Assembly: GCA_021821225.1 (NCBI GenBank)
Contig: JAKACR010000125.1
Span: 1-7,911, forward strand
Direction: 5' to 3'
Origin: Bacillota bacterium
GTDB lineage: Bacteria; Bacillota; Bacilli; Alicyclobacillales; SLC66
DNA length: 7,911 nucleotides
The notes under the pieces were generated by a model that was given only the letters and a program-made list of their open reading frames with translations, had not been told where the DNA came from and ran no database searches. Made by a program: the position numbers and the translations under genes. This document shows, one piece after another, positions 1,012-5,301 of this stretch. Positions within the stretch are counted from its first letter, which is position 1; every line of letters begins with the position of its first letter.

Positions 1012-1016
1012 TTATA

Positions 1017-1170
1017 GAGGTTGTTCAAAAAGGGGGCAGAACTCCCCGGCGCATTGCCGCGTCATCGCCAGAAATGCTCCCTCACGTACCAAAAACGTAC
1101 GCTCGGTCCGCATTTCTGGCTGCTTTTTTGCACTGCGCGGGGCTTACCTGCTCCCTTTTTGAACAGGCTC
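1017..1170. mobile_element. MITE-like element, copy 1 (short form, 154 bp) between pheS and pheT
   Basis: This is a non-coding palindromic element. The left end GAGGTTGTTCAAAAAG and the reverse complement of the right end, GAGCCTGTTCAAAAAG, form terminal inverted repeats. With a few mismatches the repeat extends through GGGGGCAG/GGGAGCAG. Flanking duplications TTATA at 1012-1016 and 1171-1175 mark a 5-bp target. The left half holds an 11-bp stem GCCAGAAATGC/GCATTTCTGGC with an inner CGTAC/GTACG. The right duplication contains the pheS stop codon. No transposase is encoded, so movement would need enzyme in trans. It lacks the inner module found in copies 2 and 3. IS family is not assigned. Confidence 0.88.
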
Positions 1171-2262
1171 TTATAGTGCCGCGCCGGAAAACTGGCGCAA
1201 AAAACGCAGATCGTTCACATAAAAATCCCGGATGTCCTCCACGCGATAGAGCAGCATGGCGATCCGCTCAATTCCCATTCCAAAAGCGAATCCGCTCACC
1301 TGCGAAGGGTCGTAGCCGTTTATGCGCAGAACGTTCGGATGGACCATGCCGCAGCCCAGAATCTCGATCCATCCGGTCTGCTTGCACGTGGCGCACCCCT
1401 CGCCGTCACAGTGGATGCAGCGTACGTCGAGTTCCGCGCTCGGCTCGGTGAAGGGGAAAAAGCTCGGGCGCAGCCTCACCTGCTGATCGGGACCGTACAT
1501 CTCGCGCGCGAAGGCGAGCAGCGTACCCTTGAGATCGCTCATGCGCACGCCCGGTCCCACCACCAGTCCCTCGCATTGCGCAAATGAGTGTGAATGCGTC
1601 GCATCGTCGTCATCGCGCCGATAGACCCGGCCGGGGACGATGATGCGCACCGGCGAATTGGGTTCGCACTTTTCCAGCGTGCGCGCCTGCACCGGCGACG
1701 TATGCGTGCGCAGCAGCAGTTGTTCAGTGAAAAAAAACGTGTCCTGCATGTCGCGCGCGGGGTGCTCCAAAGGAAAATTGAGCGCCGTGAAGTTGTAGTG
1801 ATCAAGCTCCACTTCGGGACCTTCTTCGACCGTGAACCCGAAGCCGACGAAGATGTCCTCCAGACGGCGAATCACCCTTTGCAGCGGATGTTCCGCCCCG
1901 ATCGGCGCAAACCTTCCGGGCAGGGTGATGTCCACTTCCTCCCGGCGCTCCTGCGCCTCGTCTTTCGCACGCGCCATCTCATCGCGGCGCGCAGCGAACG
2001 CCGTTTCAAGCGCATCGCGCACCCGGTTCGCGGCCTGCCCCACCGTGGGCCGTTTTTCTGCGGACAGCGCGCCCATACCTCGCAGGACAGTGGCCAACTC
2101 GCCCTTTTTTCCGAGGTACACCACGCGCCAGTTCTCCAGCGCACCCGGTGTGTCCAATTCTGCCAATCGGGATAATGCCTGTCGCTTCAGTTCGGCCAAA
2201 CGCGCTTCGATCGCCTTCGCCCCCTGTCTTGAAAATGAGGTTTCGCTGGCAGCCTCCGTCAT
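1171..2262 (-). CDS. pheS: Phenylalanyl-tRNA synthetase alpha subunit
   Basis: This is the catalytic alpha chain of phenylalanyl-tRNA synthetase, which makes Phe-tRNA-Phe from Phe, ATP and tRNA. The 363 residues include an N-terminal helical tRNA-binding arm (about 15-105) and the class II catalytic core. EHPARDMQDTFF is at 166-177, motif 2 with RVYRRDDDDATHSH at 212-225, and motif 3 with GFAFGMGIERIAM at 324-336. A CxxCx4CxxC knuckle (C282, C285, C290, C293) precedes GWIEILGCGMVHPNVL, as in Bacillus PheS. The ATG at 2262 gives an N-terminus about 18 residues longer than that of B. subtilis. It lacks a clear Shine-Dalgarno and overlaps the stop of a 15-codon mini-ORF, so coupling is possible. 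The frame stays open upstream to 2382, but that region is leader RNA. Expression is expected to be controlled by the Phe T-box upstream. The TAA stop lies inside the target duplication of a mobile element. Confidence 0.96.
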   Translation of the reverse strand: MTEAASETSFSRQGAKAIEARLAELKRQALSRLAELDTPGALENWRVVYLGKKGELATVLRGMGALSAEKRPTVGQAANRVRDALETAFAARRDEMARAKDEAQERREEVDITLPGRFAPIGAEHPLQRVIRRLEDIFVGFGFTVEEGPEVELDHYNFTALNFPLEHPARDMQDTFFFTEQLLLRTHTSPVQARTLEKCEPNSPVRIIVPGRVYRRDDDDATHSHSFAQCEGLVVGPGVRMSDLKGTLLAFAREMYGPDQQVRLRPSFFPFTEPSAELDVRCIHCDGEGCATCKQTGWIEILGCGMVHPNVLRINGYDPSQVSGFAFGMGIERIAMLLYRVEDIRDFYVNDLRFLRQFSGAAL

Positions 2263-2286
2263 ACACTTGCTGTCTTGAAAATGGGG
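2224..2286. repeat. 17-bp direct repeat flanking the pheS start codon
   Basis: CTGTCTTGAAAATGAGG at 2224-2240 recurs as CTGTCTTGAAAATGGGG at 2270-2286, matching at 16 of 17 bases with a 46-bp period. One copy lies inside pheS codons near residues 8-14 and the other lies just upstream of the start. This may be the trace of a small duplication that lengthened the PheS N-terminus or moved the start away from its original ribosome binding site. The cause is inference. Confidence 0.6.
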
Positions 2287-2306
2287 GCAGGCCCTATCGT
2301 TGTCAT
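2259..2306 (-). CDS. Possible 15-residue leader peptide coupled to pheS
   Basis: A mini-ORF, MTTIGPAPIFKTASV, lies between the T-box terminator and pheS. Its start follows a purine-rich run (AGGGG, then eight bases, then ATG). Its TGA stop overlaps the pheS start as ATGA, the usual geometry for translational coupling. The pheS start itself has no obvious Shine-Dalgarno, which makes coupling attractive. It contains one Phe and shows no regulatory codon run. Against it, a 15-codon ORF can arise by chance and no family is recognised. Confidence 0.3.
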   Translation of the reverse strand: MTTIGPAPIFKTASV

Positions 2307-2383
2307 CCCCTTTGCCCCTGCTCAAACACCGCTGCCCGGAACTCACGATGACCAAAGGGCATGGCCCATGCCGGGCGTACAAT

Positions 2384-2412
2384 AAAAAAGCTTTCGCCTA
2401 GGGGCGAAAACT
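2384..2412 (-). terminator. T-box-controlled intrinsic terminator ahead of pheS
   Basis: On the minus strand AGTTTTCGCC pairs with GGCGAAAGCT around a CCTA loop and is followed by a U-run. The stem can be extended outward by AAAG pairing with the first Us. These outer bases are the same GAAAG that closes the antiterminator with the T-box motif, so the two structures exclude each other. Confidence 0.85.
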
Positions 2413-2650
2413 CTTTCGCGGTACCACCCTGATTCGAAAGCCGCGCGCCAAATGGCTGGCCTTCCTCTGAACCCCGTAACGCGGGGCAGGCGGGCCCGTC
2501 TACCGCAGCGGCCGATCCACGCCGGGTTTGCCACTGTTCAACGCGCCACTTCCCGAGTGAACTTCCCCCGCCCGCCCACATGAGCGCTCTCAGTCGCGGC
2601 GTCTCATCCCTGTACAGGGCCCTTGCCGGGTACTCTCTCGTTCATCAGTT
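2384..2650 (-). ncRNA. T-box riboswitch, Phe-specific (specifier UUC)
   Basis: This leader senses uncharged tRNA-Phe and allows pheS transcription when Phe-tRNA is scarce. The canonical T-box motif AGGGTGGTACCGCG is at 2430-2417. It is enclosed by CTTTCG/CGAAAG, which forms the antiterminator; its TGGT bulge would pair with an ACCA tRNA 3' end. The 5' part carries AGAGAGTA near 2636, typical of the lower stem I internal loop. The 3' side of the specifier loop reads GAAGTTCACTCG. CGAG/CTCG closes the stem, placing the specifier TTC at 2561-2559, followed by the usual purine (A). UUC is a Phe codon and agrees with pheS downstream. The terminator at 2412-2384 is the off state. The 5' end is estimated from the promoter. 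Detailed stem II/III folding was not resolved. Confidence 0.93.
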
Positions 2651-4411: not shown

Positions 4412-4440
4412 GTATCCCGACCTCCTTTCCCGGACGGCTC

Positions 4441-4977
4441 TCAGGACGTCTTCTCGACGCTGTTGTTCGGCCGCGGATTCAAAATGATAATCATACTGCG
4501 CCCTTCAAGCCGCGGCGCCCGTTCAAGCAACCCATACGGCTCCAGTTCCCGCGCCAAGCGCTCCAGAACGGCCTGCCCAATCCCCGGATGCGTGATCTCG
4601 CGCCCGCGAAACCGTACTGCGGCCTTGACCTTGTCTCCCTCTTGCAAAAACTTCGCCGCCGATTTGACCTTTGTGTCAAAATCGTGGTCCTCGATGTTCG
4701 GGGTCATACGAATTTCCTTGATCAGGACCACCTTTTGGTTTTTGCGTGCCTCTTTCTCCCGTTTGCTCTGCTCGTACTTGAATTTTCCGTAGTCCATGAT
4801 GCGGCACACAGGCGGTTTTGCCGTCGGCGCCACGTTGACCAGATCCAGATCCTTTTCCACGGCGATGCGCAGGGCATCCCGGATGTTCACGATGCCAAGC
4901 TGCGCTCCCGCCTCGTCAATCAGCCGCACTTCGCGGGCCCGAATGGCTTCATTGATCTGAACGTCGTCCTTGCTAAT
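4441..4977 (-). CDS. infC: Translation initiation factor IF-3 (AUU start)
   Basis: IF-3 binds the 30S subunit, prevents premature 50S joining and proofreads start codons and initiator tRNA. With the start placed at ATT 4977 the protein has 178 residues. The N-domain is about 1-70 (DDVQINEAIRAREVRLID, PPVCRIMDYGKFKYEQ), followed by a lysine-rich linker (SKREKEARKNQK). The C-domain covers about 84-170 (KEIRMTPNIEDHDFDTKVK, GREITHPGIGQAVLERL). AUU is chosen because the homology begins there (ISKDDVQINE), a GGGGGTG Shine-Dalgarno lies seven bases before it, and rare AUU-type starts are a known autoregulatory trait of infC. The frame is open a further 47 codons upstream to an ATG at 5118, but that stretch is mobile-element sequence and is not counted. 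First gene of the operon; upstream are element copy 3 and an L20-type leader. Confidence 0.96.
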   Translation of the reverse strand: MSKDDVQINEAIRAREVRLIDEAGAQLGIVNIRDALRIAVEKDLDLVNVAPTAKPPVCRIMDYGKFKYEQSKREKEARKNQKVVLIKEIRMTPNIEDHDFDTKVKSAAKFLQEGDKVKAAVRFRGREITHPGIGQAVLERLARELEPYGLLERAPRLEGRSMIIILNPRPNNSVEKTS

Positions 4978-4984
4978 CTGACAA

Positions 4985-4991
4985 CACCCCC
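4985..4991 (-). promoter_or_regulatory. infC ribosome binding site
   Basis: GGGGGTG on the minus strand, with a seven-base spacer TTGTCAG before the ATT start, decides the infC start. It is separated from the TTTAA target duplication of mobile element copy 3 by only one base, so the insertion just missed the initiation region. Confidence 0.75.
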
Positions 4992-4997
4992 GTTTAA

Positions 4998-5274
4998 GAG
5001 GTTGTTCAAAAAGGGTGCAGAACTCCCCGGCGCATTGCCGCATCATCGCCAGAAACTCTCCTTCACGCACCAAAAACGTACGCTCGGTCCGCATTTCTGG
5101 CTGCTTCCCAGGGGACATGGGATCAAGTCCGCACGGCAGGCGCCATGATCCCGCCTATCGTGTTTGAGGCTTCAATCAAACACGATAGGCACCAACGCGC
5201 GACTGCCTAAATTTGGGCGCCCCATGTCCCATTGCACTGCGCGGGTCAACCCTGCCCACTTTTTGAACAGGCTC
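4998..5274. mobile_element. MITE-like element, copy 3 (long form, 277 bp) in the infC 5' untranslated region
   Basis: The ends are as in the other copies, but the target duplication differs: TTTAA at 4993-4997 and at 5275-5279. This confirms both the element borders and the 5-bp A/T-only target. The inner module is present, with an inverted repeat GGGACATGGG (5112-5121) and CCCATGTCCC (5221-5230). Its hairpin is a perfect 15-bp stem (5153-5167 with 5176-5190) with an eight-base loop. The outer stem is more degenerate than in copies 1 and 2. It lies between the leader attenuator and the infC ribosome binding site, and the infC frame stays open through part of it. Confidence 0.9.
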
Positions 5275-5301
5275 TTTAAATAACATCAAAAGCAAATGCA
5301 C

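Follow-up and report, generated by a model that had tools for sequence, protein, structure and literature searches.

The window analysed here is the whole stretch of 7,911 nt (60% GC), whose minus strand carries, in order, pheT, pheS, a TrmH-type methyltransferase gene, rplT, rpmI, infC, ytxC, a gene without an NCBIfam match and a partial malic enzyme gene. Three short elements lie between these genes: one in the pheT/pheS gap, one in the rplT/rpmI gap, and one between an L20-leader match and infC. We read them as copies of a miniature inverted-repeat transposable element (MITE), each flanked by a target-site duplication (TSD). The elements and their duplications are listed below; the score is that of covariance model R1, which was built from alignment A1 of 25 hand-chosen copies with a short calibration.

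1012–1016, left duplication of copy 1, TTATA (exact)
1017–1170, plus strand, copy 1, a simple element of 154 nt in the pheT/pheS gap (exact ends and TSD; model R1, 157 bits)
1171–1175, right duplication of copy 1, TTATA (exact), containing the pheS stop codon (TAA, minus strand)
3932–3936, left duplication of copy 2, TTATA (exact)
3937–4213, plus strand, copy 2, a composite element of 277 nt in the rplT/rpmI gap (exact ends and TSD, alignment)
4214–4218, right duplication of copy 2, TTATA (exact), containing the rpmI stop codon
4993–4997, left duplication of copy 3, TTTAA (exact)
4998–5274, plus strand, copy 3, a composite element of 277 nt between the L20-leader match and infC (exact ends and TSD, alignment)
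5275–5279, right duplication of copy 3, TTTAA (exact)

The original prediction placed three elements with common ends and one orientation in this region, and its coordinates are correct to the base. In all three copies the GAGGTTG end is on the left, and terminal inverted repeats are present. The A/T-only direct repeats of 5 bp that it described are exact at every copy. Two random flanks would agree at all five positions with a chance of about 0.0013 at this base composition, and the flanks of 3/3 copies agree. The pentamers differ between copies and agree on both sides of most copies, as expected of true target duplications; their length is constant at 5 bp in the window and in most relatives, with exceptions. 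The pheS and rpmI frames keep their stop because the stop codon sits in the duplicated pentamer of copies 1 and 2. The elements are short (154 and 277 nt) and have no transposase gene; judged from the list of open reading frames (ORFs; mechanically called frames, not annotated genes), they contain only short overlapping ORFs, in agreement with the predicted lack of coding capacity. In the left part, copy 1 is 97% identical to copy 2 (110 columns) and 94% identical to copy 3 (109 columns), and copies 2 and 3 are 93% identical over 279 columns.

The composite make-up of copies 2 and 3, a conserved hairpin and a probable scar go beyond what had been predicted. Three further features are involved.

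4051–4169, plus strand, nested second hairpin element in copy 2 (alignment; relatives occur without the outer element)
5111–5230, plus strand, nested second hairpin element in copy 3 (alignment)
997–1011, plus strand, 15-nt stretch between two TTATA (992–996 and 1012–1016), probably left when an earlier copy was deleted (read from the sequence; similar scars in relatives)

Copies 2 and 3 are longer than copy 1 because both carry the nested element, of about 120 nt, at the identical position. They also have an altered right arm in common, although their target sites differ. Therefore, the composite most likely arose a single time before moving to two targets. The nested element belongs to a second, unrelated hairpin repeat family with ends near GGGACATG and CATGTCCC, often flanked by CTAG. 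Its relatives occur without the outer element in genomes G599, G601 and G602, and one lies in a different arm of a G603 copy; once the family is found in tandem (L230). The probable scar is directly to the left of copy 1. Short forms of 46–91 nt are present in the G388 sample, with 5/5 duplications in 3/7, and comparable ones in G573, G601, G602 and G603. At L164 and L355, a copy adjoins a second copy, or part of one, in head-to-tail arrangement with one common pentamer.

Absence of the elements at related loci bears directly on mobility. The closest genome found, G599, has the same gene order, and its PheS, TrmH and IF-3 are 81%, 69–72% and 98% identical to those of the window; a PheS scan of genome contigs gave 61% identity for the best of the matches listed. 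None of the three elements is present at the G599 locus. The pheT/pheS site is cleanly empty, with neither the element nor the second pentamer. The G599 rplT–rpmI gap is longer than the emptied gap of the window and holds unrelated sequence without inverted repeats, and the gap upstream of infC has diverged. These two gaps therefore show absence and not base-perfect empty sites. Where the window has TTATA at the stop codons of pheS and rpmI, the G599 sequence is TTACA. A structure-model search of 15 related loci (L118–L120, L216–L227), not every one of which covers every gap, gave copies only in the G546 locus: one, flanked by a GCTAA duplication of its own, is past trmH, and the other is at the start of the contig. 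The observation that had been named as pointing to a conserved leader or intergenic structure, the same sequence at equivalent places in relatives, is thus made neither in G599 nor in the 15 loci, the G546 copies lying elsewhere in the locus. We accordingly reject a conserved RNA, in a leader or between genes, that stays at fixed places.

The family is widespread in relatives, where the search for further copies suggested with the original prediction was run. With a 287-nt copy as query, 11/18 genomes of the nearest GTDB family match at E ≤ 1e-3. Model R1 matches at least 19/59 genomes of the order and at least 46/398 genomes of the class, both tallies being lower bounds, with a limited number of scored candidates per genome (51 for the order, 7 for the class). 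In these genome searches, a match near E 1e-3 may be due to chance. Relatives hold multiple genomic copies as well as sites without the element, and copies elsewhere adjoin unrelated genes in both orientations. In G388, a single contig of 4.86 Mb, the terminus is matched exactly at 196 places, of which 108 are forward and 88 reverse. In G546, many copies, spread over many contigs, have an equal model score of 166.3 bits, which suggests a recent burst. A blastn search with member L318 extends the family to Paenibacillus cellulosilyticus, where one record has 23 places and another 3, and to P. urinalis plasmid NZ_CP118102.1; among plasmids, L318 matches only those of Paenibacillus. The P. urinalis member (L348, 3001–3178) starts one base after the end of a RefSeq coding sequence for an ABC transporter permease, within an ABC-transporter gene cluster. 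The 287-nt copy gave no match in plasmids and phages, member L315 none in plasmids, and a terminus pattern search of viral contigs nothing; a YtxC search of the phylum gave no lead.

The predicted 5-bp A/T duplications recur in these genomes. Distinct copies with a 5/5 TSD number 26/31 in G573, 5/5 in G546, 13/18 in G388 and, more weakly, 8/19 in G601. The left pentamer is TWWWA in 25/31 distinct G573 copies, and the consensus of the targets, T-W-W-W-A, is usually preceded by C and followed by G. When flanks are mispaired as a control, 5/5 matches fall at 13% in G573 and 2% in G601; unlike the TSD fractions, this control and the consensus tally count most copies on both strands.

The target consensus also goes far in explaining the placement. 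With the elements removed, the window contains nine overlapping TWWWA matches at about seven places, two within codons (pheS and rplT) and five outside; three places are occupied and one is in the scar. A preference for A/T-only pentamers at the ends of genes, in a genome rich in GC, is one of the two explanations originally offered and accounts well for the placement; the other, usefulness of the insertions, is not needed, though it is possible. In G573, 1/19 copies is inside a mechanical ORF, compared with 6630/8277 TWWWA sites; in G388, the figures are 5/18 and 3850/5320. Insertions in genes are therefore avoided or removed, though not absent. Three copies in 4.3 kb is crowded, but the window was picked for its crowding, which is partly a matter of target availability; the sampled density is 19 copies per 800 kb in G573 and 18 copies per 400 kb in G388, where two of the 20 stretches were picked for holding matches. 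A general preference for stop codons is unsupported: stop codons are overlapped by 4/19 copies in G573 as against 157/8277 TWWWA sites (p = 0.09 among non-ORF sites) and by 0/18 copies in G388. With a cruder ORF set, the overlap is 18/69 copies, as against 1.9% of 1249 sampled G573 TWWWA sites.

A full-length insertion sequence (IS) with such ends, which the original prediction had suggested looking for as a possible source of transposase, is found in relatives. A pattern that excludes most MITE interiors, applied to five genomes, led to an IS end in G546 adjoining a transposase frame. In a protein search of 20 chosen genomes, the transposase is present in two, G546 and G388, both rich in MITE copies. 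The G546 IS is 1638 bp long, has GAGCGTGTCCGGAAAGC at both ends and TATTA/TATTA duplications, and contains a single open frame of 464 codons. The G388 IS is 1632 bp long, with ends GAGCCTGTTCAAAAAG and GAGTCTGTTCAAAAAG, flanks TTTAA/TATAA (4/5) and a split frame. One further IS copy in each of the two genomes has a single visible end. Among 72,556 plasmid records, the only match is Alicyclobacillus fastidiosus plasmid NZ_CP104068.1, which carries three IS copies of 1636 bp, the other two equal to the first at 1634 and 1633 of 1636 positions. These copies, annotated only as 'transposase', have ends GAGCGTGTCCGAAAAG and GAGGTTGTCCGAAAAG and TATTA, TTATA and TTTAT pairs as duplications; the A. 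fastidiosus transposase, WP_268005238.1, is 442 aa long. They present one GAGGTTG end and one GAGCGTG end, like the two MITE end types, and the IS end core variants TTCAA and TCCG also occur among the MITEs. The MITE shares its ends with a candidate autonomous IS in G546, G388 and A. fastidiosus. A search for IS-sized pairs with a 5/5 TSD gave none that is credible in 1.35 Mb of DNA and none in the G388 sample.

Both intact transposases contain Pfam domains DUF772 and DDE_Tnp_1 above the gathering scores, a composition that we take to be that of the IS1182 family. Their best NCBIfam match is indeed NF033551 (IS1182), but the scores of 109 and 100 bits are far under its curated cut-off of 270 bits, making the partner IS at most distantly IS1182-like.

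Taken together, we put a probability of roughly 0.86 on the reading that the window holds MITE copies (of about 155 nt or, with the nested element, 277 nt) that were moved by the DDE transposase of a separate IS of 1.63–1.64 kb, and that their clustering reflects target availability and loss. The MITE part of the original prediction holds in view of the exact TSDs, the absence in G599, the many copies in relatives, the IS with such ends and pentamers, and the composite at two sites. As for the mover, comparison of sequences indicates that the IS with matching ends and the same five-base target rule probably moves the MITEs; we infer that its transposase mobilises the MITE in trans and that the lineage of the window has, or once had, an IS of this type. 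The transposase would recognise ends of the form GAGNNTGTYCRRAAAG and insert with a 5-bp stagger, mostly at TWWWA. Clustering would then arise because TWWWA is rare in GC-rich genes and gene-breaking insertions are lost. In mRNA, the copies are predicted to form strong hairpins between pheS and pheT, between rpmI and rplT, and between the L20 leader and infC; any regulatory effect of the copies is hypothetical.

Several observations weigh against this reading. The transposase is absent at E ≤ 1e-20 from 18/20 MITE-related genomes, including the copy-rich G573 and G601. No MITE match is found on the IS-bearing plasmid of A. fastidiosus, and 11/19 G601 copies are without a perfect TSD. In G546, the intact IS has ends of the TCCGG type as against the TTCAA type of the sampled MITEs, and the IS copy with a TTCAA-type end is without a right end. 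A different enzyme, of another IS family or a site-specific recombinase, might move the MITE, the IS found having converged on or captured similar ends. The absence of the transposase from most of the genomes would fit such an enzyme, as would the recombination-like mechanism linked to TTTAT that is proposed for BCR elements in the excerpted text of PMC6542083. However, IS and MITE agree in both end types and in the 5-bp A/T duplications, which makes a second enzyme improbable.

The folding of the elements raises another possibility. Copy 1 folds as a single long hairpin (−80.6 kcal/mol on the plus strand, −85.7 kcal/mol on the mRNA strand), and the composite copies fold at −146.4 and −131.5 kcal/mol. 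Among 25 copies, drawn from six genomes as well as the window, paired cells amount to 94.8%, and 24/47 pairs have changes on both sides; AU, GC and UA are the three pair types used at several pairs. Covariation was tested by five measures, two of them weak, against shuffles that ignore relatedness. The covariation score of the 25 copies is 0.417; shuffles give 0.153 and slid structures no more than 0.097, the true structure being favoured over slid versions because it was derived from the same alignment. The weak measures are the double-change pairs (24 versus 20.4 in shuffles, 5/500 shuffles being as high) and the further pair types (45 versus 46.1, 406/500 as high). Near-invariant blocks comprise the termini, the left-hand AGAACTC, which is unpaired and opposite CTTACC on the right, and the apex, CTCAYGTAC...GTACRCTC, which is retained in Paenibacillus-type copies without the other loop motif. 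The covarying hairpin interior with its conserved loops persists while the stems diverge. The region also contains two leader matches, although an Rfam search of the window at plain gathering scores reported nothing.

2397–2654, minus strand, T-box leader match (Rfam, 79.1 bits, under the gathering score)
5295–5444, minus strand, L20 leader match (Rfam, 44 bits, under the cut-off of 58.7)

Copy 3 is about 20 nt from the L20-leader match at one side and about 20 nt from the infC start at the other, which we take to be the putative AUU at 4975–4977. The elements could serve chiefly as structured RNA modules with a function in the translation operon, held at these places by selection, with mobility old and incidental. 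The covarying hairpin with conserved internal loops, the common orientation of all three copies in one operon region, and the position of copy 3 between the L20-leader match and infC favour this. However, G599 has no copy at any of the three places, the related loci searched have none in these gaps, and copies elsewhere stand beside unrelated genes in both orientations. In addition, no Rfam family matches the elements in the window at E ≤ 1, and at seven loci with copies none matches them at its gathering score, only tRNAs passing. Window copies 2 and 3 have moreover lost the right-arm motif that is conserved elsewhere. We consider the RNA modules quite improbable. The notion that the pentamers are not target duplications and that the elements owe their spread to direct repeats that recombine or slip, as adjoining copies with one common pentamer (L164, L355) and short deletion forms might suggest, is largely refuted by pentamers that vary between copies yet agree on both sides of most, and by the G599 pheT/pheS site without element or second pentamer.

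Tentatively, and with more doubt than conviction, we suggest that the elements represent a structured, parasitic hairpin lineage that has long persisted across Bacilli, as opposed to disposable products of deletion in an IS. Its core (the apex and, in most subfamilies seen, the unpaired GAACTC / TCTTACC motifs) may be selected for a function of its own, either as RNA that helps to process or protect mRNA in operons or as DNA that folds during transposition; bcr1 of the B. cereus group may be a further branch, and the IS type found here the mover. Templated correction between palindrome arms could be an alternative source of compensatory changes without RNA selection.

Small hairpin MITEs are a known kind; this family appears to be new. 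The literature searched, in which ISfinder and most subscription papers were outside the scope, holds no description of it. In the excerpted text of PMC6542083 and PMC3446304, bcr1, bcr2 and bcr3 of the Bacillus cereus group are intergenic, high-copy, MITE-like and structured, with a TTTAT motif, often in operon gaps or untranslated regions; a repeat size of 147 or 167 nt is given in a table of PMC2267715. By description only, they resemble the present family as intergenic, high-copy, structured MITE-like repeats. As to the TTTAT motif of bcr1, the window copies have TTATA, TTATA and TTTAA, the targets of the family are mostly TWWWA, and one related IS copy has TTTAT. ERIC, Correia/NEMIS and RUP elements are described in an excerpt of PMC2229807 as 100–200 bp long, with terminal inverted repeats, target duplications and long stem-loop transcripts, and by such description they resemble the family in size, inverted-repeat ends, duplications and stem-loop. 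In contrast, the termini of ERIC, Correia and RUP are TA-type in a table of that paper, as opposed to GAG...CTC ends and 5-bp TWWWA duplications here, and the present partner, a DDE_Tnp_1 transposase, is different from theirs. For many bacterial hairpin MITEs, the mobilising enzyme is unknown or hypothetical according to the same excerpt.

The present family, across Bacilli, is tied to a concrete candidate IS, and the plasmid IS copies look recent. IS and MITE agree in the kind of ends and of target duplication that they have, which makes mobilisation in trans directly testable. The question that the family raises is what maintains a covarying hairpin and its conserved loops as the stems diverge. 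In the RefSeq-annotated records examined, the copies are unannotated and lie in operon gaps, and they are therefore relevant when operons and leaders are annotated in genomes of Paenibacillus and of Alicyclobacillus-like bacteria.

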